Assembly: GCA_017656185.1 (NCBI GenBank)
Contig: JACDOK010000015.1
Location: forward strand, 1-51,249
From: Peptococcaceae bacterium
GTDB lineage: Bacteria > Bacillota > Desulfotomaculia > Desulfotomaculales > JACDOK01
Length of the DNA stretch: 51,249 bases
Direction: 5' to 3'
Shown here: in pieces, positions 6,221 through 38,846 of the stretch
How the letters are laid out: the number at the start of each line of letters is the position of its first letter
Position numbering within the stretch: the first letter of the stretch is position 1
Made by a program: the position numbers and the translations under genes
Notes under the pieces: generated by a model
Told to the model about the DNA's origin: nothing
The model's database searches: none
What the model saw: the letters and a program-made list of their open reading frames with translations, nothing else

Positions 6221-7636
6221 TTACGATGGGTTCAAGCAGAGGCGGTTTTTCCCTTGTCTCTTTGCCTGATAACAGGCCTGATCCGCCCTTGCAAACAGCG
6301 AGTCAACAGAATCGTTTTTTTTCGCCGAGGCTACGCCCAGGCTTGCCGTGACCTGGCGGTGCGGGAAAGGGTAAGTCTCTATAGATTTCCGTATTCTTTC
6401 TGCCACCCTTGCAGCACCTTCCCCTTTTGTCCCTGGAAGAATGATTACAAACTCCTCGCCCCCGTATCGGCACGCAGTATCCACAATCCTGATGGAGTTT
6501 TTTATTATCTCTGCCGTCTTCTGCAGCACCACATCGCCGGCCACGTGGCCAAAGGTATCATTGTAAGCCTTGAAGTCATCTATGTCCAGGAAAATAACCG
6601 ACAGGGGGGTACCGTACCTCGTTGTCCTCTCAAGTTCGGTAACCAGTAGGTTCCGCAGGGCACGCTTATTAAGAAGACCGGTCAAGAAGTCGGTTTCGGC
6701 TTCTCTTTCCAGGCGGTGTATAAGGGTCGCATTGGCCAGGGCCACCGCAGCGAAGTTCGCATATATCTGCAGATTTCTGCTACTGTTATCATCCAGGGAA
6801 ACAGGTGCCACTATACCTAACAACCCCACGGCACCCAAAGCAGTCCAGAGGGGATAAACCAGGATTTCAGTCTCGGGAGCAACCTCTACACCGGTAAGAC
6901 CCGGTAGAGTCCTTAACTCCTCAAGACTCAGAAATGACGGCTCAACTTTTGAAAAAACCTGCTCAATCAACGGCTGGACCAACGGCCATTCCTTCCCGAT
7001 CAATAGGTGGCCGTGTTCACCTTTAGCCTGCGCTACTCTGATTTTGTCACCCTCTCGAAGGCCGACAAAACATAGCTCTGCCTGGTAGATTATGATCAAC
7101 GAATTCGTTATAAGGTCCAGAACCTTGTCCAGTTCGACGATCGAGGTCATCAGACGACTGATTTCATAGATGCTGTTCAGTTCAAGCCTCCGTAATCCTA
7201 ACAGGTTTTTTTCGAGGATGGCCTGAAGAACCTCATTGATCGTCCGGTAAATGCTGTGTGCTTTCGTAGCAAAGGTATTTTCTTCCTCACGTCCCACCAG
7301 GGTTGTAAGCCTCGTAGGAGTGACAACAAGGAACCCTATCTTTTGGGCGTAGGTGCCCAGGCGGTATGCACAAAGTTTAAGCCCGTAAGGACAGGTAAGC
7401 ATGTCTTTATCTTCTAACGAATCGAGGGTAGACTTATAAAAACTGATACACTTTTCGTCGCGGAGCACCCTCCCTTTATTTACCTCCTGGCATAATTCAA
7501 CGGGTAGACTGAATAAGGAGAAAGAACCACCGTTTACATCAAAGATGTAAATGTTTGCATCCATGACCTTGGCCAGCGTATCCTGAAAATCCTGCCAATA
7601 CTTTACCGAGATGCTGAGGAGAAGGCTTGTTGGCAT
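6221..7636 (-). CDS. PocR-like-GAF-GGDEF diguanylate cyclase
   Basis: 471 residues without membrane segments. The N-terminal ~140 residues are a divergent PocR-like domain (DEKC, TCPYG, LCAYRL cysteine motifs), then a GAF domain (about 165-300) and a GGDEF domain with RYGGEEF preceded by RIVD (I-site). It should synthesise c-di-GMP under feedback control. The ATG is preceded by GAGGTG at about seven bases. The gene starts 11 bases after the KaiC-like gene on the same strand, so co-transcription from about 9.4-9.6 kb is likely. Confidence 0.87.
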   Translation of the reverse strand: MPTSLLLSISVKYWQDFQDTLAKVMDANIYIFDVNGGSFSLFSLPVELCQEVNKGRVLRDEKCISFYKSTLDSLEDKDMLTCPYGLKLCAYRLGTYAQKIGFLVVTPTRLTTLVGREEENTFATKAHSIYRTINEVLQAILEKNLLGLRRLELNSIYEISRLMTSIVELDKVLDLITNSLIIIYQAELCFVGLREGDKIRVAQAKGEHGHLLIGKEWPLVQPLIEQVFSKVEPSFLSLEELRTLPGLTGVEVAPETEILVYPLWTALGAVGLLGIVAPVSLDDNSSRNLQIYANFAAVALANATLIHRLEREAETDFLTGLLNKRALRNLLVTELERTTRYGTPLSVIFLDIDDFKAYNDTFGHVAGDVVLQKTAEIIKNSIRIVDTACRYGGEEFVIILPGTKGEGAARVAERIRKSIETYPFPHRQVTASLGVASAKKNDSVDSLFARADQACYQAKRQGKNRLCLNPS

Positions 7637-19718: not shown

Positions 19719-20948
19719 TTACGGCACGGATATCGCACGGGATTTGCTGATCATTCCTATGTGATGGATCATTTCCGCGTCCACCTTCACGAGCACCTCG
19801 ACGCCGGGGAAAATCTCCGGCCAGTCATCCTTGATCGTCTTCCACTCCTGCGGAAATCGGCGGCGGAAGGCTTCCCCGAAGCCAAAGACGTCCGATTGCA
19901 CCTCCTGGGCCTTGGCCACCGCCGCCAGCACCTCCCGCCGGACCGCCGCCGCACATAGCCTGTCAATTTCTTTTGCAACTTCGGGCTTGGACAGGTCGAA
20001 CGGGCCTTCCGCCTCGGCCACATCGCCCACTACAGAGATTTCGACCGTCATGCGGATGCGCCCGTCGGTAAGCTCCGGCTTGATCGTTGCCTGTCCGCCA
20101 TGGATATCTGCGGCAATTTGGCCCTTTCCCCCGGGACCGGGGACAACCAGTTGCCCTCCCCGCACCTCATTGAGCACCCAGAGGAGGCCCCTCGTCTCAG
20201 GCTCGTTGAGGAAGCCCACCAGCCTGTCCTGGCGAAAGAGCGCGGCGCCCGTCAGGGTTATAGTAAGCGGCGGCTCCATACTCAAATCTTTACGGACCCG
20301 CGGCGTGGCCGTAGGGTTGGCAACCGCCTCGATCACCCCTACAAAGGGCTCCTGCCCGTCAAGGCTCAGGGTCTCCAGTACTTTGCTTAAGGGCACGGCC
20401 GCAAAATGGGACGTCTGCCCGCGCCACCTTACAATATTGTCGATGCGCAGGGCGGGACATACGCCATGCGGGTTAGGCACATTTAGAATCTTCCTGACAT
20501 CGCCTTTAGCCACGAAGACCCTATTGAGCCGGCGGCGGATTTCCACGCTGCGGCCGAAGAAATCGAGCACATCCCCCAGGCCCTGCCGGGCAAGGTCCTC
20601 GCTAAAAATGACGGTACGGTTCTGGGCAAAGAAAAGCCGCTTCGGGGACTGGTGCGCTGCCGCGCGGATGGCGTCAAAGATGGTCCGACCGACCACCTCG
20701 TAGTTGCGAAATGCCTTGCTGGATATACTGGCCCCGGGGGTTACCCCTCCCCGCGGCCCGGCCGCCAGAGCCCGCGGGTTGGGAACCTGGACTAAAAGCT
20801 TCACCAAGCCCTGTGGCGTTCGGTCCACGGCGGTAGCCATCACGTAACCCAGATCCTCCGCCTGGCGAAGGTCCCAGCAGCCGGCCTGGACGGCGGCGGC
20901 AAGCAGGACAATTACCAGCACAAGGGCTGTAATTAACCTCTGCGGCAC
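19719..20948 (-). CDS. gerAC: GerAC-family germination receptor lipoprotein
   Basis: 409 residues. The lipoprotein signal ends in VQAGCWD; CWD followed by DLGYV is the hallmark of Ger(x)C proteins. The rest matches the family: the N-terminal domain with VVGRTIFDAIRAA and FFGRSVEIRRR, and the C-terminal domain ending FPGVEVLVKVDAEM. It is the outer-leaflet-anchored C subunit of a germinant receptor in the spore inner membrane. The GTG follows GGAGGTGAT. It is 52 bases after gerAA. Confidence 0.9.
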   Translation of the reverse strand: MPQRLITALVLVIVLLAAAVQAGCWDLRQAEDLGYVMATAVDRTPQGLVKLLVQVPNPRALAAGPRGGVTPGASISSKAFRNYEVVGRTIFDAIRAAAHQSPKRLFFAQNRTVIFSEDLARQGLGDVLDFFGRSVEIRRRLNRVFVAKGDVRKILNVPNPHGVCPALRIDNIVRWRGQTSHFAAVPLSKVLETLSLDGQEPFVGVIEAVANPTATPRVRKDLSMEPPLTITLTGAALFRQDRLVGFLNEPETRGLLWVLNEVRGGQLVVPGPGGKGQIAADIHGGQATIKPELTDGRIRMTVEISVVGDVAEAEGPFDLSKPEVAKEIDRLCAAAVRREVLAAVAKAQEVQSDVFGFGEAFRRRFPQEWKTIKDDWPEIFPGVEVLVKVDAEMIHHIGMISKSRAISVP

Positions 20949-21000
20949 ATAATCACCTCCTCACCCGGGGTGCACCCTGCATCTAGTTTGATCTCTCCCT

Positions 21001-22644
21001 TTATTCTTTTTTATGGTTATCCCGGGCCGGCCCGGGCTTGAGGTTCGGGGCCATCCGGTACCGGTTTTGTTTGGCCAGCTCAGCCGGTCTCCTGCGCATG
21101 GTCCACATGGGGAAGCGCACAAGAATATCCTTCCAGTCGGTGGAGTGGAAGGGCACCAGCCCGGCGAGGTAGGGCACCCCAAAGGAACGCAGGCCCGCCA
21201 GGTGGATGAAGATGGCCAGCACGCCGGAGATGACCCCAAAAAGGCCCAGCGTTCCCGCCATGAGCATCACCGGAAACCGCAGAAGGCGTATCGAGATGGC
21301 CAGGTCGAAGGCAGGGGCGAGAAAGGAGGTAATACCCGTAAACGCTACCACGATCACCATTTGCGGCGAAACCAGGCCGGCCGTCACCGCCGCATCTCCG
21401 ATAACCAGCACCCCCACGATACTTACCGCCTGGCCGATGGCGCGGGGCAGGCGCACCCCCGCTTCCCGCAGTACCTCGAAGGCCACTTCCATCAGCAGGG
21501 CCTCCAACACCGCCGGCAGGGGAACCCCCTCCCGGCTGGCCACAATGTTCAGGAGAAGGCGCGTGGGAAGCATCTCCTGGTGGAAGGTGGTCACAGCCAC
21601 ATAGAGCGAGGGGAGCAGCAGCGAGATGCCGAAGGCCATCCACCGGAGCAGCCGGATGAAACTGCCGAGGTGGCCGAAGTGGTAATAGTCCTCGGGACTC
21701 TGCATCAGGGCGACCAACCCTGCCGGCAGTACGAGTACAAAGGGCGTGCCCTCGGTGAGGATGGCCACCCTGCCGTCCAGCAGGTTGGCGGCGACCTTAT
21801 CAGGCCGCTCGGTGGCGATCATCTGCGGGAAAGGCGAATAGGGGCTGTCCCGGAGCATCGTTTCCAGGTAATTGCTCTCGAAAACCCCGTCGATATCGAT
21901 GCGTCTTAAGCGTCTCCTCACCTCGTCCACCAGCCCCGGATCTACGAGGCCCTTGATGTAGGCAAGGGCGACGCGGGTGCGGGTTACCCGCCCGAAAAAC
22001 ATATTTTCGAACTGAAGGTTCGGGCTTTTTAACCACCGGCGCAGCATGGTGATGTTTACGGCCAGGCACTCAACGAAGCCTTCACGCGGGCCCCGCACCA
22101 CAGCCTCGGTCTCCGGCTGCCCAACCGGCCGCTTTTCAAATCCCTCAGCCTCCATAACAAGCCCAGTGGCCTCGCCGTCCAAAAACAGTACCGCATTTGC
22201 CTCAAGGATACCTTCCACCGCCTGGCGGAGATTTGTTATCTCCTTCACCGTACCGGCGGTAACGGCGACGCGCTTCATATCCTCCCACAGCGGCCGCCCA
22301 TTGGGCTCCCGGGGCCGGTAATCCAGCATCAGCGACTTCAGCACGTTATGGCCGACCAGGGAGCGTTCGACCAGGTCTTTGATAAAAACCAGTGCCGCCC
22401 GGGCCCGGCCCCCGGCGATATCGAATTCGCGCACGATGAAATCGGGGTTGGTATCGAAGACCTCTTTCAGGCGCGTGATATTAACCTGCAGGTCCGGGGA
22501 AAGAGGTATCCTTTCCAATTCCGCGGGTTCCCAAACGCGTGTCTCTGTTCGGCCCAGGTCCTGCTTACCGTCCACCGGCTGCACGACGGACTTCTTTGAC
22601 CGCGCCAGGAGATCCATAAGTTTTTTGGTCAGCCGCCTGCGCAA
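21001..22644 (-). CDS. gerAA: GerAA-family germination receptor A subunit
   Basis: 547 residues. A large N-terminal cytoplasmic part (ITRLKEVFDTNPDFIVREF, then RVTRTRVALAYIKGLVDP) is followed by about five membrane helices from residue ~310 (SFIRLLRWMAF, PLPAVLEALLMEVAFEVLREAG, and so on). This is the standard architecture of the A subunit. It works with the B and C subunits to detect germinants. The TTG start lies after GGGGGTGG. It follows gerAB by 26 bases. Confidence 0.92.
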   Translation of the reverse strand: MRRRLTKKLMDLLARSKKSVVQPVDGKQDLGRTETRVWEPAELERIPLSPDLQVNITRLKEVFDTNPDFIVREFDIAGGRARAALVFIKDLVERSLVGHNVLKSLMLDYRPREPNGRPLWEDMKRVAVTAGTVKEITNLRQAVEGILEANAVLFLDGEATGLVMEAEGFEKRPVGQPETEAVVRGPREGFVECLAVNITMLRRWLKSPNLQFENMFFGRVTRTRVALAYIKGLVDPGLVDEVRRRLRRIDIDGVFESNYLETMLRDSPYSPFPQMIATERPDKVAANLLDGRVAILTEGTPFVLVLPAGLVALMQSPEDYYHFGHLGSFIRLLRWMAFGISLLLPSLYVAVTTFHQEMLPTRLLLNIVASREGVPLPAVLEALLMEVAFEVLREAGVRLPRAIGQAVSIVGVLVIGDAAVTAGLVSPQMVIVVAFTGITSFLAPAFDLAISIRLLRFPVMLMAGTLGLFGVISGVLAIFIHLAGLRSFGVPYLAGLVPFHSTDWKDILVRFPMWTMRRRPAELAKQNRYRMAPNLKPGPARDNHKKE

Positions 22645-22670
22645 GTCCGGCCACCCCCTGTATCATCGGA

Positions 22671-23777
22671 TCAGCTTGCACCCTGCAGACTTTTGGGCTT
22701 CAAAAAAGTTAACAGGTATAGAAAACCGGTAAGCATGAAATTGACAAAAATAATGGTCAAAGGGAAAACCTCACCCGAAAAACTCTTTAACTCAACGATG
22801 TTTTCCCAGGCCTGCATGCCCAGTGCCGTCATAACCGCACCCGCCGGTAAAATAAGGATACGGTAGCTTCTCAGGTTCAGCCACTGGGCCAGCCCGAGGG
22901 TGCCCGCGTAGAAGAAGGTGGAGAGTTTCATCAGCATGCCCGCTACCCAAATCATCATAAACATGGCGTCCTGCCGTTCCAGGATGGGCAGAGCTTCTAT
23001 AGTCACCCGGCGGGCGATATTAAAGGTGGGATAGAGGAAACGCCCGGTCTCGTTAGGGCCCATTATTCCTACGGCGCCGATCACCACCATTTCCATGACT
23101 ACAAAAAGTATCGTCACGGCCAGGAGGCTTGTCTTCAACGTTTTGCCCTGGTTGCCGATAAAAGGGAGCAGCATCAGAATAACCGCCGTTTCACCGAACC
23201 AGCCCCCCGGCACAACGGCTCCGAGAACGACCGGTCCGACCCCGTTTTCCAAAAACGGAAGAAAGCGGGTGAATTCTATATCTTTAACGATAAGCAGGAA
23301 AATGAGCAAGAGACCGAATAAAGCCACCGCCAAAATGATCGCGTTTACTCTGCAGAGCACCTCGAGCCCGCCGTAAAGCACATAGGCGGCAAGCAGGGTC
23401 AGCATAATGATAACAACAATGATTGGGGTTTGGGGCAGATAGGCCGCGGACATCAGTGCCTCGAATTCACGCTGGACAAAGTAAGCCACGTAGAAAAAGT
23501 AGAATATATAGATAAAACCGATGACTTTACCTAAAATTTTCCCCGCCACCCGGGGAGCGTACTGGATTACCGTCTCGCGAGGGAATTTCAGGGCCAGCTT
23601 GGTGGCCACAAAGACCTGCAGGCTGCCGAAAAGATAGGCCAGGACAAGAGAAAGCCAGGCGTCCTGCCTGGCGTATTGCGCCGTAATGGCAGGTACAAAC
23701 AAGATGGCCGTCGCCAAGACGATACTCACCTGGTAGCCCATGGCCTGGTAGGCCGAAATTTGCCCTTCTTCCCGCAT
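22671..23777 (-). CDS. gerAB: GerAB-family germinant-binding permease
   Basis: 368 residues with about ten membrane helices; an amino-acid-permease-like GerAB protein (EEGQISAYQAMGYQVS at the start). The B subunit is generally thought to bind the germinant. ATG 23777 is chosen because GGAGAG lies just upstream; an ATG at 23795 has no ribosome binding site. It is the first gene of the operon, giving the order AB-AA-AC rather than the AA-AB-AC of B. subtilis gerA. SigG control is expected for the family, but I could not identify the promoter. Confidence 0.9.
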   Translation of the reverse strand: MREEGQISAYQAMGYQVSIVLATAILFVPAITAQYARQDAWLSLVLAYLFGSLQVFVATKLALKFPRETVIQYAPRVAGKILGKVIGFIYIFYFFYVAYFVQREFEALMSAAYLPQTPIIVVIIMLTLLAAYVLYGGLEVLCRVNAIILAVALFGLLLIFLLIVKDIEFTRFLPFLENGVGPVVLGAVVPGGWFGETAVILMLLPFIGNQGKTLKTSLLAVTILFVVMEMVVIGAVGIMGPNETGRFLYPTFNIARRVTIEALPILERQDAMFMMIWVAGMLMKLSTFFYAGTLGLAQWLNLRSYRILILPAGAVMTALGMQAWENIVELKSFSGEVFPLTIIFVNFMLTGFLYLLTFLKPKSLQGAS

Positions 23778-23795
23778 CTTACTCTCCAACCTCAT

Positions 23796-29818: not shown

Positions 29819-29850
29819 AAGGCCGATCTCATATGAGATCGGCCTTTTTG
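29819..29850 (+). terminator. Terminator of the TrpXYZ-type operon
   Basis: A perfect palindrome AAGGCCGATCTC/GAGATCGGCCTT (29819-29846) runs into TTTTTGTTTT, 38 bases after the ATPase stop. The A-rich left arm could also make it bidirectional. Confidence 0.85.
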
Positions 29851-29957
29851 TTTTCCCCTGAAAAGTTAGAATCGGGGTACCAGTTAATGTCACACTTCGA
29901 CATTATATTCCATATGATGCAGTAAACAACAAAACTACCATCAAGGAGGTTTTTAGT

Positions 29958-30140
29958 ATGGACAAAATAGAAAAAAAGGAAGTTGGGACCCAGAGCCTTT
30001 TCCCCCCCAACCCCGTTGCATTCTGGCTGGGGTTACTGATCTTCCTGGTCGGTCTAGTCATTATTGCAGTGGTACCAGTGCCCTTTAAATGGCTCGGTGC
30101 AGTTATTGCCATCCTGGGCATCCTAGTCGTGTTATTCTAG
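29958..30140 (+). CDS. Small membrane protein with two hydrophobic segments
   Basis: 60 residues. A charged N-terminus (DKIEKKEVGTQ) leads into two hydrophobic helices (about 22-39 and 44-60); the C-terminus ends in the membrane. AAGGAGG is well placed upstream. An inverted repeat AATGTC-7-GACATT (29886-29904) lies before the gene and could be an operator. It has its own terminator at 30157 and is thus a monocistronic unit just before the coiled-coil/protease operon. Family not recognised. Confidence 0.75.
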   Translation: MDKIEKKEVGTQSLFPPNPVAFWLGLLIFLVGLVIIAVVPVPFKWLGAVIAILGILVVLF

Positions 30141-30156
30141 AAACCCCGCCGGTAGA

Positions 30157-30182
30157 GGGCTACACTGCGGTGTAGCCCTTCT
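30157..30182 (+). terminator. Terminator with GGCTACAC stem (copy 1)
   Basis: GGGCTACAC (30157-30165), loop TGCG, GTGTAGCCC (30170-30178), then TTCTACTCT. The same 8-base arms recur at 31801-31821. Confidence 0.65.
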
Positions 30183-30230
30183 ACTCTCACTCTTTTAAGA
30201 TTGTAACAATAACATAAGGATGTGGTGAAT

Positions 30231-30665
30231 ATGAAACTGAGTTCCAGCTGGGAACTTTATGAAGTTATAAATCAGTTAACCGAACGAGTCGACAGCCTCA
30301 TACAGGATAAGGAAGAGCTCAGTGCCCAAATTGCCAAAATATCATCAGAAATTGATACCATTTCGGCAAAACTCAAAGAGCCGGTCAACCAACCGCTATC
30401 CCTTGGGGAAACAGTTAACCTTGAATCCTTAGGGGATAGCATCCGCAAAATCCTGTGCGGAGCAGTAACAGCAGGCAAAATCATTGAAATGATAGCCAAT
30501 ACTTTCCTCGCCATAGCCGATATGATTTTCAATACTTTGCACGAGCAGAGAAGTGCAGGTGGGAACGGAAACCAAATGCAAACGATTAATAATGTTATCG
30601 GGCAAATTTCTGAAGTGATCCAGGACTTGGCCCGGTCCAGGATCACGGCCCGGCAAACAGGATAA
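30231..30665 (+). CDS. Coiled-coil protein with hydrophobic helix, coupled to the subtilase
   Basis: 144 residues. Residues about 5-50 form a heptad-like coiled coil (VINQLTERVDSLIQDKEEL, then IAKISSEIDTISAKL). A glycine/proline-containing link follows, then a hydrophobic helix (about 82-108, TAGKIIEMIANTFLAIADMIF) and a C-terminal helix. The ATG at 30231 follows AAGGA; GTG codons at 30222 and 30225 are alternatives. The stop is four bases before the protease start. The protein at 32224-32745 has the same layout. I do not recognise the family; scaffold, substrate or inhibitor of the protease are all possible. Confidence 0.72.
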   Translation: MKLSSSWELYEVINQLTERVDSLIQDKEELSAQIAKISSEIDTISAKLKEPVNQPLSLGETVNLESLGDSIRKILCGAVTAGKIIEMIANTFLAIADMIFNTLHEQRSAGGNGNQMQTINNVIGQISEVIQDLARSRITARQTG

Positions 30666-30669
30666 CAAG

Positions 30670-31770
30670 ATGCCCGGGAAACCGCAAAAGATTGTCCTCT
30701 TCCGGCACCTACCCACTCGCGCTCGTAAACGTATTGCCAATATCTATCGCATGCTTTTGACAAGACACGGGGCCAGCAATATTCGCCCCCTGCCTCTGAT
30801 AAACGGAGTGGCATGCACCTTTGAGAACCCCGAACTGGCCCAACAGTTAGCAGCATCCAAAAGCGTTATCGCCATCGAAGACAACGGTGAGGTCCGTTTA
30901 CCACTGCCATGGCAAAGCAGGTTTTTCGGCAGCACAACGGTACCTGAAGACTACCAGCTAATACCGTGGGGCATCGACCGCATCGGGGCCAACCGGGTCT
31001 GGAGGGTAACTCGGGGACGTTCCGTAAGGATAGCCATACTCGACACCGGGATTAACTTGGATCACCCTGAACTGGCCCCTAACATTAAAGGGGGATATAA
31101 CGTTTTAACACCTTCTGCCGCTCCGGAAGACGATCACGGTCACGGGTCCCACATTGCCGGCATCATTGCCGCGGCCGATAATGGATGGGGTATTATCGGC
31201 GGATCACCTGAGGCCAGCATTTATGCCGTAAAAATTTTAAACAGGTTTGGCAAGGGGACCATCGTGGATGTCATCTCGGGACTGCAGTGGTGTCTGGATA
31301 ATAAGATATACCTGGTAAACCTCAGCCTGGGAACCAACCAGCCCAGTAAGGCTCTGCACCAGGCCGTCAAAGCCGCTACCAGGATGGGAATGATCATCGT
31401 TACCGGCGCCGGAAATGACGGGAGCAGTCAATCCGTTGATTACCCCGGGGCCTATCCTGAAACGATAACGGTTGGTGCAGTGGACTATAACAATAAGTTG
31501 GCCTACTTCAGCAGTAAAGAGGCGGAAGTTAATTTTATAGCTCCAGGAGTCGATATCCTTTCAACGTCGTCAGTCGGGCAATACGCGCGTTTCAGCGGAA
31601 CATCTATGGCTGCGGCCCACGTTACGGCGGCCTTTGCATTACTGCTGGGGACATACGGAAAGAGCCATAGGCTGGTGAACCTGTTACGGGAAACGGCGGA
31701 AAAATTACCGGACCTCGCACCTGAAGAACAAGGCGTCGGGCTAATCCGGGTTGACCGTGCCCTAAGTTGA
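30670..31770 (+). CDS. S8 subtilisin-like serine protease without signal peptide
   Basis: 366 residues. Catalytic triad Asp125 (AILDTG), His158 (GHGSHIAG) and Ser312 (SGTSMAAAH), with oxyanion Asn249 (GAGND). The first ~80 residues look like an I9-type propeptide (GVACTFENPELAQQLAAS, then VIAIEDNGEV). There is no signal peptide, so it is an intracellular-type subtilase or is exported by another route. It is translationally coupled to the coiled-coil protein four bases upstream and followed by a terminator. Such a pairing is not one I know from intracellular subtilisins. Confidence 0.88.
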   Translation: MPGKPQKIVLFRHLPTRARKRIANIYRMLLTRHGASNIRPLPLINGVACTFENPELAQQLAASKSVIAIEDNGEVRLPLPWQSRFFGSTTVPEDYQLIPWGIDRIGANRVWRVTRGRSVRIAILDTGINLDHPELAPNIKGGYNVLTPSAAPEDDHGHGSHIAGIIAAADNGWGIIGGSPEASIYAVKILNRFGKGTIVDVISGLQWCLDNKIYLVNLSLGTNQPSKALHQAVKAATRMGMIIVTGAGNDGSSQSVDYPGAYPETITVGAVDYNNKLAYFSSKEAEVNFIAPGVDILSTSSVGQYARFSGTSMAAAHVTAAFALLLGTYGKSHRLVNLLRETAEKLPDLAPEEQGVGLIRVDRALS

Positions 31771-31800
31771 TCCGGCCTTGATCATTTGTCCATAAATTTT

Positions 31801-31828
31801 AGGCTACACGCTGTGTAGCCTAATTTTG
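31801..31828 (+). terminator. Terminator with GGCTACAC stem (copy 2)
   Basis: AGGCTACAC (31801-31809), 3-base loop, GTGTAGCCT (31813-31821), then AATTTTG. It lies between the convergent protease (plus) and the small gene at 31835 (minus), so it may serve both. Confidence 0.65.
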
Positions 31829-31834
31829 TATAAG

Positions 31835-32086
31835 CTATTCTTTGACCTGCCTCGTTTTAGCCTCTACCAGCTCCCTTACCGCATTAAGAAGCTGGTCGAG
31901 AGATGATGCACTTTGCTGATCACCCAGTTGTTGTTTCGCTTGATCCACTGTGGACGACAACATTTCCAACAGGGATTGCGGATCCGTCTTAGAAGCGAAC
32001 TCTTTCAAAGCATCAACATCCACGTTTTGCAGCATACTCCGCAAAGGTTCCGGCAAAGACGAGAGATCCAGGTTTGGTTTATCCAC
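31835..32086 (-). CDS. Small helical acidic protein facing the subtilase
   Basis: 83 residues from a GTG with AAGGGGG eight bases upstream; longer frames reach ATG 32134 or 32188 but lack a ribosome binding site. Predicted helical throughout (LPEPLRSMLQ, DALKEFASK, QSLLEMLSSTVDQAKQQL, LDQLLNAVRELVEAKTRQ). The last helix resembles the C-terminal helices of the coiled-coil proteins at 30231 and 32224. Soluble, no known domain. Divergent from 32224-32745, so the two probably share a control region. Confidence 0.6.
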   Translation of the reverse strand: MDKPNLDLSSLPEPLRSMLQNVDVDALKEFASKTDPQSLLEMLSSTVDQAKQQLGDQQSASSLDQLLNAVRELVEAKTRQVKE

Positions 32087-32223
32087 CGGTATTTCCCCCT
32101 TTGGCTTTTTGTTAACTAATCTATGTGGAAGCATATTATTTTGAAACACTGTCACGTATAACTTAAGCACATTCTTACTGCCAGCCAACTATATTAATAG
32201 AAAAACAAAGGAGGGAATAGGCT

Positions 32224-32745
32224 TTGAGAAGGTTTACCACCATTGAACAGCTGTGCCATAAAATTGATGAGCTGGAACAGGAAAACCAAGCGCTGAACCA
32301 GGAAATTAACCAGTTGACCGATACGATAGAAGCACTATCTCAAATGATCCAAGAACAGCCCAAAAAGGATTGGACGGAAACATTAAACAAAATTGCCAAT
32401 GGGGCCAAGATAACGGGTGAGGTAATTACTTTGCTGGCTTCAACCTTTTTGACCATTATGGATTCTCTCAGCAAAACACATTCAAATCAGCCCACCGTCC
32501 CTGCCGGTTTTGCTCAGGGAACTAATCTCAACAGCACCAAAATAGCTGAGCTGTTGCAGAGTTTAGCATCCCTCATCCCTCAACCCGAACAGAGCCCGGA
32601 AAAAGCAACCGATATTACGGCAAAGAAAAACCAAGAAGAGTACGGCGGAGAACACCAAGAACCTGAGGAAGCAGACATGGACAACGAAAAAAAGCCTGAT
32701 ACCGGTGGTGCGGAGAATAAAGACGGACAGGATCCCGAGGAGTGA
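32224..32745 (+). CDS. Second coiled-coil/hydrophobic-helix protein with acidic tail
   Basis: 173 residues from a TTG with AGGAGG nine bases upstream. Coiled coil at about 5-45 (LCHKIDELEQENQALNQEI), hydrophobic helix at about 62-84 (ITGEVITLLASTFLTIMDSL), helix at about 100-118, then a long disordered tail rich in Glu, Asp, Lys and Gln (AKKNQEEYGGEH, then MDNEKKPDTGG). Layout matches 30231-30665 (LASTFLTIMDSL versus IANTFLAIADMI), suggesting duplicated members of one family bracketing the protease. Confidence 0.7.
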   Translation: MRRFTTIEQLCHKIDELEQENQALNQEINQLTDTIEALSQMIQEQPKKDWTETLNKIANGAKITGEVITLLASTFLTIMDSLSKTHSNQPTVPAGFAQGTNLNSTKIAELLQSLASLIPQPEQSPEKATDITAKKNQEEYGGEHQEPEEADMDNEKKPDTGGAENKDGQDPEE

Positions 32746-32756
32746 TGAAAAGCACA

Positions 32757-32815
32757 GCACAACCATAGTTTCAGGCTTCTTATGCCAGAAGCCCGCTAAT
32801 GGTTGTGGGTCCCCC
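32757..32815 (+). terminator. Long two-tier hairpin after the coiled-coil gene
   Basis: Outer arms CACAACCAT and ATGGTTGTG enclose an inner stem GGCTTCT/AGAAGCC. It is followed by GGGTCCCCCTTTATACTT, so termination is possible though the T-run is poor. A small structured RNA is an alternative. Confidence 0.45.
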
Positions 32816-33960: not shown

Positions 33961-34010
33961 GGGTCTCTATTGGATCTCTACCGGATCTCTACTGTATATT
34001 CTATCGTACT
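33961..34010. repeat. Family B array adjoining a family A copy
   Basis: GGTCTCTATTGGATCTCTACC and GGATCTCTACTG (33961-33993) run into GTATATTCTATCGTACT (33994-34010), an inverted family A unit, immediately beyond the permease stop. The two families touch here. Confidence 0.55.
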
Positions 34011-34942
34011 CACCTTTCCTCGCGATCATAGGGCAATCCCAGCGCCTGCGGCGCGCCAATGCGCCGCACTTTATTATTTCGTGTGACTATAATTAGAACT
34101 ACTATAGTTAAGATATACGGCAGCATCTTGAGAAAGTACGGCGAAACAGTTACTTCGAGAGCCTGCAGGCGGAAACCCAAAGCATGTACCCCGCCGAAAA
34201 TGTATGATCCTATCAGGGCGTTAAGAGGATTCCAGGTGGCGAAGATCACCAGGGCCACGGCAATCCATCCCCGGCCAGCCACCATATTCTCCATCCAGGT
34301 AGGGACGTAAGCCAAAGACAGGTAAGCCCCGCCGATACCGGCCAGCATCCCGCCCGCGATGACATAAATGTACCGGGTCAGGAAAACATTGACCCCGAGC
34401 GAATCGGCTGCCGCCGGGTTTTCTCCTACCGCCCTCAGGTTCAGACCTGCCCTGGTATGAAACAATAGAAACCAAAGCGCCGGAGCCAGCACATAACTTG
34501 CGAGTACCAGCATATCGTGCTGAAACAGTACCGGCCCCACAAACGGCAGATCTGATAACACGGGTAAATGTACATCTTTAAAGGGGTTGGGTAAGGGTGT
34601 TCCGATCATGGATTTACCCAAATAGCCACTGAACCCGGTACCGAACAAGGTTAAAGCCAGACCGCTTACTACTTGATTAGCCTTAAGACTGACTGTTAAA
34701 AAGGCATGGATCAGGGCCATGGCACCACCGGCCAGTGTGGCTGCCAAGAGACCCAGCCAGGGATTGGCAGTACCAACTCCTACCATAAATCCCGTAACGG
34801 CCCCTACCAGCATCATACCCTCAACACCGAGATTGAGAACTCCTACCCGTTCACACAGAACTTCGCCCAGCGCGGCATACAGGATGGGGGTGCCGGCTGT
34901 GACGGCTGTCGCCAGTATCATTGTCAGAACATCCATACTCAT
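34010..34942 (-). CDS. Nucleoside-type ABC transporter permease 2 (YufQ/NupQ-like)
   Basis: 310 residues, eight to ten membrane helices (ALGEVLCERVGVLNLGVEGMMLVGA near the start, ALGENPAAADSLG-type loop as AVGENPAAADSLGVN). It belongs to the RbsC/BMP-importer permease family. It pairs with the permease at 34939-36042, overlapping its stop by 4 bases. Last gene of the operon. Confidence 0.9.
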   Translation of the reverse strand: MSMDVLTMILATAVTAGTPILYAALGEVLCERVGVLNLGVEGMMLVGAVTGFMVGVGTANPWLGLLAATLAGGAMALIHAFLTVSLKANQVVSGLALTLFGTGFSGYLGKSMIGTPLPNPFKDVHLPVLSDLPFVGPVLFQHDMLVLASYVLAPALWFLLFHTRAGLNLRAVGENPAAADSLGVNVFLTRYIYVIAGGMLAGIGGAYLSLAYVPTWMENMVAGRGWIAVALVIFATWNPLNALIGSYIFGGVHALGFRLQALEVTVSPYFLKMLPYILTIVVLIIVTRNNKVRRIGAPQALGLPYDREER

Positions 34943-36042
34943 GCGCTCTCATCTCCCGCTCTCATGCCCGGCATAAACCGTAAACGATAGCGCAGCAAAA
35001 TTTCCCCACCCAATACAAAAAACAAGAGGGTTCCCTGCAGCATTGCGACCATAGTGGACGGGATACCGCTGGTCTGCACTACATAGCCGCCGACCTGCAG
35101 CCCGCCGAAGAGAAAGGCTACCAGTACGATGGCGATGGGATTAAGTTTAGCTAACCAGGCAATAATGATCGCCGTATAACCGTAACCGGGACTCAACCCC
35201 GGCTGCAGGCGGTGCATCAGTCCCGAAACTTCTGCCATTCCCGCCAAACCGCACACCGCCCCGCTGGCGAGCATCACCAGGAGAATGTTGCGGGTGATAT
35301 TCATACCGGCATAACGGGCCGCTTCGGGACTCTCACCGATAACGCGCACTTCGAACCCCCATTTGGTACGGTAGATGACAAAATAAAATACTACGGCCAA
35401 CAACAGGCCGAAAAGCAAACCCATATGAATCCGTGTGTCCCCGAATGTGGGCAGAACAGCTTCCTCTCTGAAGGGCGCCGTAAGGGGAAAGTTAAACCCC
35501 TGCGGATCCCGCCAGGGACCGTAAACCAGGTAGTCTACCCATAAGATAGCGACATAATTAAGCATTAGGGTCATAATAATTTCGTTAACCCCGAGATAGG
35601 CCCGGGGAACAGCCGCCAGCAGGGCCAAAAAACCTCCCGCCAGACAGGCGGCAATCACCATCACCGGCAATAACACCCAGGCCGGCCAATCGGGGAAGAA
35701 TAAGGCTATGCCCGTAGCGGCAAAAGCACCCATATACAACTGCCCTTCTCCACCAATATTCCACAACTGCATGCGAAAGGCCAAACCTACTCCCAAGCCG
35801 CATAACATCAGGGGAATGGATTTGACCACCGTTTCCGTCAATCCGTAGGTAGAACCTACTACACCGGAAAACATCTTGCCGTATATATACCCCGGGTCTT
35901 TACCGGACAGGTAGAAAAACAGACCGCAAACAGCCAGGGCCAATACTATGGACGCAACCGGTACCAGCACCACCATTACAGGTGACGGCGTCATTGTTTT
36001 TTCAACCTGGAGAATGTTTCGACCGGTCAGCCTCAATTTCAC
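34939..36042 (-). CDS. Nucleoside-type ABC transporter permease 1 (YufP/NupP-like)
   Basis: 367 residues, about ten membrane helices (PLMLCGLGVGLAFRMQLWNIGGEGQ; VIGESPEAARYAGMN loop). It forms the heterodimeric membrane domain with the next gene. The GTG start overlaps the stop of the ATPase gene by 4 bases. Family members import purine nucleosides such as guanosine. Confidence 0.9.
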   Translation of the reverse strand: MKLRLTGRNILQVEKTMTPSPVMVVLVPVASIVLALAVCGLFFYLSGKDPGYIYGKMFSGVVGSTYGLTETVVKSIPLMLCGLGVGLAFRMQLWNIGGEGQLYMGAFAATGIALFFPDWPAWVLLPVMVIAACLAGGFLALLAAVPRAYLGVNEIIMTLMLNYVAILWVDYLVYGPWRDPQGFNFPLTAPFREEAVLPTFGDTRIHMGLLFGLLLAVVFYFVIYRTKWGFEVRVIGESPEAARYAGMNITRNILLVMLASGAVCGLAGMAEVSGLMHRLQPGLSPGYGYTAIIIAWLAKLNPIAIVLVAFLFGGLQVGGYVVQTSGIPSTMVAMLQGTLLFFVLGGEILLRYRLRFMPGMRAGDESA

Positions 36043-37568
36043 CTTACAGCCGCCTCCCTTTCTTCGCCGCCCATCATCATCAAACCCACGCGCTCCGCGT
36101 CGGCATCCTCAATATCCAATACACCGACCAGGTTACCGTCATAAAGTACTCCGATACGGTCACTGAGCTTGAAGATTTCGTCCAAATCTTCGGAAATGAG
36201 GAGTACCGCCGTGCCTTTTTCCCTTTCTTCCAAAAGCATGCGGTGGACCGCTTCGGTGGCGGCAATATCCAGCCCGCGTACAGGATAAACAGCTATAATG
36301 AGGCGGGGTCCGGAGGAAATCTCCCGCGCCAGCAGCAGGCGCTGCAGATTACCGCCGGAAAGGAGCTTGACCGGGGCGTCCAGCCCCGTAACACTGATAC
36401 TAAACCGGGCAATCAGGTCCAACGCCCGCTTCACACCTATACGGCGATTAACAATCGGCCCTTTGGACAAATGCGGCGTACGGTAATCTTTCAGAATTAC
36501 GTTCTCTACCACGCCCAGACCGGGAACAAGCCCGGTTCCCAAGCGGTCCTCAGGAATATACCCTACGCCCTCGTCAATAATCCGGCGTACCGGGGCATTG
36601 GTAAGGTCTTTGTCCCCCACATAAACGCGGCCTTTACTGATATTTCTCAACCCGGTAACCGCCTCAGCCAGTTCGCGCTGCCCGTTACCGGCTATACCGG
36701 CAATACCAAAAATTTCACCGGCGCACACCTGCAGGGAAACGCCCTGCAGGGCATTACAGCCGCTGTCATTCAATACCTGTACCTTATCAAGCCTTAAAAC
36801 GGGGGGGCCTTTGGCAACTGATTTCCTTTGAATACGGGAAAGTACATCCCGGCCGACCATAGCGCAGGCTAAATCCCGCTTGGTAAACTCGCCCCGTACC
36901 ATAGTGCCCACCTGTTTTCCTCCACGCAGCACGGTAACACGGTCGGCAATTTCCATAACCTCATTGAGCTTGTGGGTGATCACCACCACCGCCCGGCCGC
37001 GTTCAGCCATCTCCCGTAAATTGCGGAATAAATCACGCGCTTCTTGAGGCGTAAGTACGGCCGTTGGTTCATCCAGAATCAGAATCTCGCAGCCGCGATA
37101 CAGCATTTTAACAATTTCAACCCGCTGGCGTTCACCGACCGAAAGCTGCCATATCTTAGCACGCGGGTTAATCTGAAGCCCGTAACGTTGTGACAACCGG
37201 GCAATTTGTTCCTCAATTCTACCCATGCGGGTGATAAATGGCGTCCTGCGATCGCCTAGGACAATATTTTGAGCTACAGTAAAGGTATCCACCAGCTTAA
37301 AATGCTGGTGTACCATGCCGATGCCCGCCCGAATAGCGTCGCGGGGTGAACGGAAAACTTGTGACGCCCCGTCGATAAAGATTTCACCCTCGTCCGGCCG
37401 GTAAAGCCCGGCGAGAATACTCATCAAGGTGCTTTTGCCGGAACCGTTTTCGCCCAGCAAGGCATGGATTTCACCGGGATAAAGCTTTAGATCGACCGCA
37501 TCATTCGCTACTACCCCGGGAAACCGCTTTGTAATGCCTCTCATTTCCGCCAAACACATTTGATTCAT
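36039..37568 (-). CDS. Nucleoside-type ABC transporter double ATPase (YufO/NupO-like)
   Basis: 509 residues with two ABC domains. The first has GENGSGKST, LSVGERQRVEI and ILILDEPTAVLTP. The second has the degenerate P-loop GIAGNGQRE normal for the second domain of RbsA/YufO proteins, and LSGGNLQRLLLAREI. It powers the two permeases downstream. ATG 37568 is chosen for family agreement (MCLAEMRGITKRFPG); an extension to 37598 is unsupported. It is 156 bases after the binding protein, with a strong terminator between them, so partial read-through sets the stoichiometry. Confidence 0.92.
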   Translation of the reverse strand: MNQMCLAEMRGITKRFPGVVANDAVDLKLYPGEIHALLGENGSGKSTLMSILAGLYRPDEGEIFIDGASQVFRSPRDAIRAGIGMVHQHFKLVDTFTVAQNIVLGDRRTPFITRMGRIEEQIARLSQRYGLQINPRAKIWQLSVGERQRVEIVKMLYRGCEILILDEPTAVLTPQEARDLFRNLREMAERGRAVVVITHKLNEVMEIADRVTVLRGGKQVGTMVRGEFTKRDLACAMVGRDVLSRIQRKSVAKGPPVLRLDKVQVLNDSGCNALQGVSLQVCAGEIFGIAGIAGNGQRELAEAVTGLRNISKGRVYVGDKDLTNAPVRRIIDEGVGYIPEDRLGTGLVPGLGVVENVILKDYRTPHLSKGPIVNRRIGVKRALDLIARFSISVTGLDAPVKLLSGGNLQRLLLAREISSGPRLIIAVYPVRGLDIAATEAVHRMLLEEREKGTAVLLISEDLDEIFKLSDRIGVLYDGNLVGVLDIEDADAERVGLMMMGGEEREAAVR

Positions 37569-37671
37569 ACCAAACACACCCCTAACAACGCCCACCAATC
37601 CTGGATAAAAAACTTAAACTCCTCCGGCAACCAAAAAGCGGACCCTTTGCAGGGCCCTCATAAACATCCCA

Positions 37672-37712
37672 TCTAAAAGAGGATGGGCGCCGGCAGGAGC
37701 CTGCCGGCGCCC
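37672..37712 (-). terminator. Terminator between the BMP lipoprotein and the ATPase genes
   Basis: Perfect stem GGGCGCCGGCAGG (37685-37697) with CCTGCCGGCGCCC (37700-37712), 2-base loop, then (minus strand) ATCCTCTTTTAG. It lies 12 bases after the binding-protein stop, a common way of making more binding protein than transporter. Confidence 0.75.
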
Positions 37713-37724
37713 GCTACAAATATT

Positions 37725-38828
37725 TTACTGCTCAATATTACCCTGGACACCCTCCACGAACCAGTCCATGGACAACATATCCTTATCGCTCATTGTTTCG
37801 CCTTCAGCGACCCTCAGTTCACCGTTCTGGTCTTTAATGGGTCCGGTAAAGACATCCCATTCACCGCTAACAATCTTTTCCTTTGCTTCTTCCACGGCAG
37901 CCTTCATTTCATCCGTTACCATGGGCCCGTACGGGGCCAGACCTACGATACCTTCAGCCATCGAGCCCCAGTAACTGCTTGATTCCCAGGTACCTTCCTT
38001 AACTGCCTTTACGGTTTCAATATAATAGGGCGCCCAGTTCCAAACGGCAGAAGTCATTACCGCCTTCGGGGCCAGTTTACTCATATCGCTGTTGTAACCG
38101 ATGGACAGCTTACCGCGCTCCTGGGCAGCCTGCTGCGGGCCGGGAGTGTCCTGGTGCTGGGCGATAACGTCGGCTCCCGCATCCAACAGGGCATTAGCGG
38201 CCTCCTTTTCAGCCGCCGGGTCAAACCAGGTATTCGTCCATACCACTTTCACCTGGGCATCGGGATTAACCGACCGTACACCCAGGGTAAAGGCGTTAAT
38301 CCCGCGGATAACTTCCGGAATCGGAAAGGCAGCCACATAACCGATCAAATCGCTTTCGGTGGCCATACCCGCTATAATACCGGTCAGGTAGCGGGCCTGG
38401 TACATCCGGCCAAAGTAAGTACCCACGTTGTCAGCGGTCTTATAACCCGAACAATGCAGGAAGACAACATCGGGGAACTTTTTGGCCACATTAATAGTCG
38501 GGTCCATAAAACCAAAGCTCGTTGAAAAGATTACATCATTACCGTTCTGGGCCAACTGTGTTAAAACACGCTCAGCATCAGCATCGGCTACGTTTTCTAC
38601 CACTTCGGTTTCCACGTACGGAAGCGCTTCTTCTAGTGCCTTACGCGCCTGGTCATGCGCATAAGTCCAGCCGGCGTCACCGGGCGAGCCGATATAGACA
38701 AAACCAACTTTTATTTTGTCGCTATTATCGGCCGAAGGCTCTTCTCCCCCACCGCATCCGGCCAGCAACGCCGCTGTCATAAACATCACGGCGACAAGTA
38801 AAACCGCTTTGGAATACCACTTGCGCAA
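37725..38828 (-). CDS. BMP-family nucleoside-binding lipoprotein
   Basis: 367 residues. Signal peptide with lipobox LLAGCGGG; mature part KVGFVYIGSPGDAGWTYAHD, then GNDVIFSTSFGFMD and the FAMP-type fold of PF02608 basic membrane proteins. It delivers nucleosides to the YufOPQ-like transporter. TTG 38828 has GGGAGGT seven bases upstream; the frame extends to a TTG at 38846 that lies within the ribosome binding site and is rejected. First gene of the operon. No purine riboswitch was recognised upstream. Confidence 0.9.
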   Translation of the reverse strand: MRKWYSKAVLLVAVMFMTAALLAGCGGGEEPSADNSDKIKVGFVYIGSPGDAGWTYAHDQARKALEEALPYVETEVVENVADADAERVLTQLAQNGNDVIFSTSFGFMDPTINVAKKFPDVVFLHCSGYKTADNVGTYFGRMYQARYLTGIIAGMATESDLIGYVAAFPIPEVIRGINAFTLGVRSVNPDAQVKVVWTNTWFDPAAEKEAANALLDAGADVIAQHQDTPGPQQAAQERGKLSIGYNSDMSKLAPKAVMTSAVWNWAPYYIETVKAVKEGTWESSSYWGSMAEGIVGLAPYGPMVTDEMKAAVEEAKEKIVSGEWDVFTGPIKDQNGELRVAEGETMSDKDMLSMDWFVEGVQGNIEQ

Positions 38829-38846
38829 TTTGTTTACCTCCCCCAA

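Follow-up and report, generated by a model that had tools for sequence, protein, structure and literature searches.

A conserved gene cassette pairing a signal-less subtilase with coiled-coil proteins, and its probable place in late sporulation of Desulfotomaculia

The 51,249-nucleotide stretch of a Peptococcaceae bacterium genome analysed here (positions 1 to 51,249 of contig JACDOK010000015.1, assembly GCA_017656185.1; hereafter the window) carries a five-gene cassette, in which a subtilase (S8) is accompanied by two coiled-coil proteins (CC1 and CC2), a peptide with two predicted transmembrane helices (TM) and a small helical protein (hel). We consider it probable, with some reserve, that this cassette is a sporulation locus particular to the lineage, expressed late in the mother cell and serving the spore surface, in which S8 either processes the CC proteins or is scaffolded by them. 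The five open reading frames (ORFs) named by the original prediction, which had been made from the DNA letters alone, were all found where it had placed them (Table 1), and its statement that no described system has this arrangement is supported, in that no description of the unit came up among families, structures, Rfam entries or papers. In the literature searched, we found neither a report of the cassette nor a spore proteome of a carrier that contains its proteins. The evidence computed here comprises the conservation and linkage of the genes, the catalytic triad and propeptide of S8, the promoter motif of the relatives, the neighbourhood of yabG (in two families and an outgroup) and the covariation of an RNA hairpin.

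Across the class of the window organism (113 genomes, with the window genome as the sole representative of its own family; f- and g-numbers denote families and genera of this set, G-numbers genomes and L-numbers loci), CC was present in 43 genomes and hel, at convincing E-values, in about 26; TM was recovered by profile in about 25, and also by reading upstream of CC in loci of f5, f11, f3 and g40, most of which the profile had missed. An even, phylum-wide draw of 399 genomes yielded CC in 13, only three of them outside the class (one of these being weak). A class-wide profile search separated 29 cassette-type S8 proteins (at least 472 bits, plus one split by a frameshift) from the rest (at most 390 bits), and each of the 29 has a CC gene no more than 1 kb away, as against none of the 36 other S8 matches, which supports the proposed linked unit. 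The neighbours, on whose conservation the original prediction had staked its reading, are conserved across the class. At L045 (G052):8189-9300, S8 appears as two overlapping ORFs, owing to a frameshift or an assembly error. The layout TM-CC1-S8-hel(-)-CC2 (minus strand marked) is that of the window and of G078 (family f15), TM-short CC-S8-CC2 that of genus g40 of f15, TM-CC-S8-hel(-) that of f10, TM-CC-S8 that of f7 and f9, TM-hel-S8-CC that of the out-of-class genome G231, and TM-CC-hel(-)-CC2, without S8, that of f5 and f11. CC without S8 was observed in 14 genomes (including six f5 genomes carrying two CC genes, and G038), and therefore CC likely has a function of its own; judging by gene content, S8 is dependent on CC, and CC is not dependent on S8. 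At L048 (G038), 6766 to 7431, TM, a hairpin and CC are kept and S8 is gone between CC and the next conserved gene, a natural loss of S8.

S8 matches Pfam PF00082 (Peptidase_S8, E 4.6e-51), which places it in peptidase family S8, and its D125, H158, N249 and S312 are invariant across 14 cassette relatives; with no hydrophobic N-terminal signal visible, the description of a signal-less protease with an intact triad is upheld. The S8 profile aligns, over its positions 6-367, with 3WHI (subtilisin E including its propeptide; chain residues 7-364), and a subtilisin-type (I9-type) propeptide, for which some 75-100 residues ahead of the catalytic domain are expected, is predicted for S8. A type VII secretion mycosin was considered and rejected (TIGR03921: 157 bits vs a cut-off of 278.75), and no ESX-like genes were found among window ORFs of at least 150 residues. 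Scanning the genome contigs with the single S8 sequence gave no matches, and an alignment-based scan gave general subtilases, none of them adjoining CC among the matches listed.

The original prediction had cast the coiled-coil proteins as anchors, restraints or substrates of the protease, by analogy with a toxin-inhibitor or regulated-proteolysis pair. A protease with its substrate or scaffold fits better than a toxin with its antidote, since S8 needs CC and CC persists without S8; a dedicated inhibitor or antitoxin should not outlast its protease, so that the toxin-inhibitor half of the analogy is not supported, S8 moreover having its own propeptide and whole two-CC families lacking S8. Anti-phage defence and toxin-antitoxin systems were rejected, their models having given only generic subtilase and coiled-coil matches, and CC occurring without S8 in the 14 genomes. 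A related alternative, in which CC1 and CC2 hold S8 back, as inhibitors or anchors, until a signal arrives and have no special role at the spore surface, could draw on the translational closeness of CC1 and S8 (as predicted, S8 starts four bases past CC1, at 30670 after the stop at 30665, and the two overlap or abut in several relatives) and on the cassette subfamily of S8 never having been seen apart from CC; the propeptide, the persistence of CC without its protease and the generic nature of the defence matches all count against it, and we judge it distinctly unlikely.

The partner proteins could be followed by profiles rebuilt without any window sequence (leave-one-out, to avoid circularity) and then run on the window ORFs, where they recovered CC2 (E 1.3e-17), CC1 (1.5e-13), hel (1e-18), TM (1.3e-6) and S8 (8.6e-146). 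A profile of the non-coiled-coil core alone also retrieved CC2 (4e-13) and CC1 (1.1e-9), and so their kinship exceeds coiled-coil composition: the two proteins, described earlier as sharing one layout, are paralogues. The two-helix peptide noted ahead of CC1 (29958-30140) is, on its profile match, part of the unit. The ‘hydrophobic helix’ ascribed to the CC proteins had to be reinterpreted, as its conserved K, G, E and S residues make it look amphipathic rather than membrane-spanning. As for the small protein on the minus strand, its presence was borne out and its length was not: it most likely has 83 residues, starting at the GTG at 32086 (not 117), because relatives begin there and a Shine-Dalgarno sequence precedes it. 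The CC core profile also gives a weak match to hel (window 31835-32188, minus strand, E 0.0022), a hint at a possible origin of hel in the C-terminal half of a CC protein. In a tree of CC1 and CC2, most CC2 proteins cluster together and the window copies sit on long branches, so placed that they cannot be assigned. The AlphaFold2 model of CC1 has three helices at low confidence (predicted local distance difference test, pLDDT, 75; predicted template modelling score, pTM, 0.35), and the hel model is of similarly low confidence (pTM 0.42). Searches with CC, hel and TM against Pfam, NCBIfam, PHROGs, PADLOC and the PDB returned coiled-coil background matches only.

The timing of expression is suggested by the promoter. 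In 29 of 39 loci, the motif AC-N17/18-CATANNNTA stands no more than 150 nt ahead of the TM start, compared with 4 of the 427 other genes at these loci. Sigma-K promoters of Clostridioides difficile and Bacillus subtilis have this form, a -35 AC paired with the same -10 (PMC3789822). Taking AC - 16/17 - CATANNNTA as the definition of a sigma-K regulon promoter, the family has a predicted one and the window a near-match. In the loci examined, no full motif was found directly upstream of CC or S8 (only -10 halves), and hence a single transcript from TM fits. In several relatives, a CATANNNTA box also precedes hel by 33-39 bases.

A mother-cell promoter would also suit a role in late-sporulation clean-up, with S8 breaking down mother-cell proteins as lysis approaches and flanked by unrelated sporulation genes that happen to share the locus; intracellular subtilases (e.g. 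Isp) are indeed present in sporulating Bacillus. The pairing of S8 with CC is, however, exclusive in every occurrence and across contexts (window, f10, f7/f9 and G231), and we hold this role to be very improbable. The Csp germination proteases are signal-less subtilases too, and S8, as a signal-less enzyme that would be made by the mother cell with its propeptide region retained, might resemble them. On this alternative, S8 would be stored in the spore with CC as its carrier and act on cortex-lytic enzymes at waking, as CspB acts on pro-SleC (PMC3789822). Yet S8 has 366 residues against 1099 (CspBA) and 556 (CspC) model positions and scores far under the cut-offs of both (CspBA 33.7 bits, cut-off 1250; CspC 31.6 bits, cut-off 675), by which its identity as a Csp protease was rejected; moreover, the cassette motif is of sigma-K type, while csp is sigma-E dependent in C. 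difficile (PMC3789822), and no pro-SleC-like gene was noticed adjoining S8. We therefore regard germination as a quite improbable function.

The assignment to the spore surface is strengthened by genomic context. In f7, f9 and the out-of-class G231, the unit lies downstream of yabG (PF05582, E 8e-120 to 6e-117), in the interval that yabG starts, with a SPOCS/LysM protein and a CAP protein near it; in f7 and f9, the next genes are ispE and that of a GntR-type regulator (both identified by eye). The yabG gene is sigma-K controlled (PMC3789822), and its product is a cysteine protease that processes coat proteins (PMC10681294). S8 is not a YabG replacement there, because the examined loci carry both; S8 as YabG (peptidase U57) itself was also dismissed, with no PF05582 match in S8. 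Upstream of the unit in f7 and f9 (L037:4967-6939, L047:5432-6772 and others), one or two YbaB-like proteins and a helical protein without a family (177-284 residues) stand beside the SPOCS/LysM gene, and these may be additional components of the spore-surface locus. A c-di-AMP riboswitch (Rfam RF00379) lies directly upstream of the CAP-domain gene in the yabG region of L047 (1134-1380). SpoIVA was detected in 104 of the 113 class genomes (the window genome among them) and in 43 of the 43 CC genomes (hypergeometric P 0.011), and CC is absent from both of the small SpoIVA-less genomes G031 and G040 (families f5 and f7). We regard the sporulation link of the cassette as well supported; the gene set, common to a group of spore-forming soil and subsurface bacteria, looks to be turned on late in spore formation.

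The gap between TM and CC holds a hairpin (GGGCUACAC/GUGUAGCCC) that shows covariation and is private to this locus in each genome. The pattern GGCTACACN{1,7}GTGTAGCC was found in 24 of the 113 genomes, only at the cassette locus and once each (twice in the window genome), and all of these genomes bear CC (P 4e-13 if independent); in nearly all loci, the distance from the hairpin down to the called CC start is 13-132 bases (more in two). An alignment of 28 copies shows 97% pairing over the 12-pair stem, with two-sided changes at 7 pairs; 0 of 500 shuffles were as high on any measure, slid versions were 29-53% paired, and each of the two window copies has a folding z of -4.6. The stem sequence is nearly invariant, as compared with neighbouring proteins that go down to about 25% identity. 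Its conservation suggests an RNA-binding or processing event, and since the loop length ranges over 2-8 bases and the stem accepts G-U pairs, an RNA element is favoured over a DNA operator. A pure terminator is also disfavoured for the first copy, which was not scored as one and has no T-run at 30151-30185 (nor is there a T-run in f10); the second copy (31799-31823) is terminator-like. The 5' arm GGGCTACAC (window 30157-30165) is the same as a conserved 9-mer of 16S rRNA, which we take to be probably a coincidence. A further, leader hairpin (GAACG...CGTTC) begins immediately after the -10 box in f5, f7, f9, f10 and f11, within a few bases of the expected transcript start, and in L036, L037, L047 and other loci it stands some 50 bases ahead of TM; it often has CCCGGG in its loop, is near-private to the locus where this form occurs, and in L039 and L041 its fifth pair has changed on both sides. 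Neither hairpin matches any Rfam family.

Mother-cell expression, the location in the spore, the cleavage target of S8, the role of the hairpin and the biochemistry joining S8 to CC are what we infer, as follows. A sigma-K-type promoter would drive a transcript running TM - hairpin - CC1 - S8, and hel and CC2 would be transcribed from the neighbouring divergent region. The products, all without signal peptides, would be made in the mother cell surrounding the forespore and would most likely build or mature an outer spore layer: TM would reside in a membrane (the outer forespore membrane being the natural site), CC1 and CC2 would be structural or scaffold coiled-coil proteins, and S8 would release its own propeptide and then trim CC1, CC2 or further proteins of the surface, just as other sporeformers use YabG. 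The TM-CC hairpin may set the ratio of TM to CC/S8, or may be bound by a protein. Several observations weigh against this account. The structural roles of CC, TM and hel are guesses from shape, since none matches a family; the window cassette is set between ATP-binding cassette (ABC)-transporter genes on one side and a phosphoesterase/Asp23 pair on the other, and yabG is not adjacent; the window copy of the promoter is one base off the consensus, and the leader hairpin is not recognisable in the window; the exact promoter motif precedes yabG in only 1 of 3 genomes checked; and the co-occurrence with SpoIVA is weak evidence, because nearly the whole class sporulates. A bolder extension, which we think rather unlikely though worth stating, would see in CC, TM and hel a so far undescribed spore-surface assembly system of the class, whose dedicated subtilase matures a coiled-coil scaffold, and whose operon is under the control of locus-private, fixed-sequence RNA hairpins bound by one of its own proteins, giving autoregulated stoichiometry in spore-shell assembly.

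Elsewhere in the window, a BMP-type lipoprotein, an ABC ATPase and two permeases (34010-38846, minus strand; nucleoside-uptake type, by eye) lie downstream of the cassette and are ordinary. Three adjoining genes (19719-23795, minus strand) resemble, by eye, the GerA/GerB/GerC germinant-receptor families, consistent with a sporeformer.

Table 1. Genes and sequence elements of the cassette (window positions).
Feature	Position	Strand	Description
Terminator-like hairpin	29819..29846	+	12-bp stem, T-rich tail; sets the cassette apart from upstream ABC-transporter genes
Sigma-K-type promoter-like site	29892..29919	+	AC at 29892, N17, CATATGATg at 29911-29919; one base off CATANNNTA
TM peptide	29958..30140	+	60 residues, two predicted transmembrane helices; opens the unit
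Intergenic RNA hairpin, TM/CC1 gap	30151..30185	+	Stem GGGCTACAC/GTGTAGCCC
CC1	30231..30665	+	144 residues; coiled coil at residues 4-49, conserved amphipathic helix, C-terminal helix
S8 subtilase	30670..31770	+	366 residues, signal-less; predicted propeptide ~residues 1-95, catalytic domain 116-356, triad intact
Hairpin copy 2, GGCTACAC/GTGTAGCC	31799..31823	+	Terminator-like; between convergent S8 and hel
hel	31835..32086	-	83 residues, small helical protein; start corrected from 32188
CATAGATTA, -10-like box	32117..32125	-	31-39 bases upstream of hel; without AC at -35
CC2	32224..32745	+	173 residues, CC1 paralogue, acidic C-terminal tail; divergent from hel

Both subtilases and proteases that process the coat are already known; what is new is the proposed protease-scaffold operon, its undescribed partners and the sequence-conserved, locus-private hairpin. 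The sigma-K-driven outer spore layers vary widely by lineage; only one sporulation-specific sigma-K gene, yabG, belongs to the genomic sporulation signature (PMC10681294). A second dedicated protease, encoded in one operon with linked partners in an anaerobic, heat-hardy Desulfotomaculum-like class, would offer a testable entry into spore building. The hairpin, unusual in its near-invariant stem and its single locus per genome, suggests RNA binding or processing, which is directly testable. YabG is among the closest known systems: it is a signal-less mother-cell protease, as S8 would be, the cassette S8 is proposed to act similarly on co-expressed surface proteins, and the cassette adjoins yabG in f7, f9 and G231; YabG is, however, a cysteine protease of unrelated fold and catalysis, whereas the cassette has a serine subtilase together with dedicated CC, TM and hel proteins. 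The SPOCS/LysM spore morphogenetic proteins (SipL/SafA-like) are neighbours of the unit in the same three lineages, but they lie outside it in the window genome and are unrelated to CC, TM and hel. The Csp proteases (CspB/CspA/CspC) are signal-less, propeptide-bearing subtilases of the spore, which S8 is predicted to be as well; the cassette enzyme departs from them in scoring below their cut-offs, in being shorter, and in having other gene partners and a sigma-K- rather than sigma-E-type promoter. Finally, the secreted subtilisins (subtilisin E, Carlsberg) have the same layout of propeptide and catalytic domain, and differ from the cassette S8 in that the latter is without a signal peptide and tied to a CC gene.

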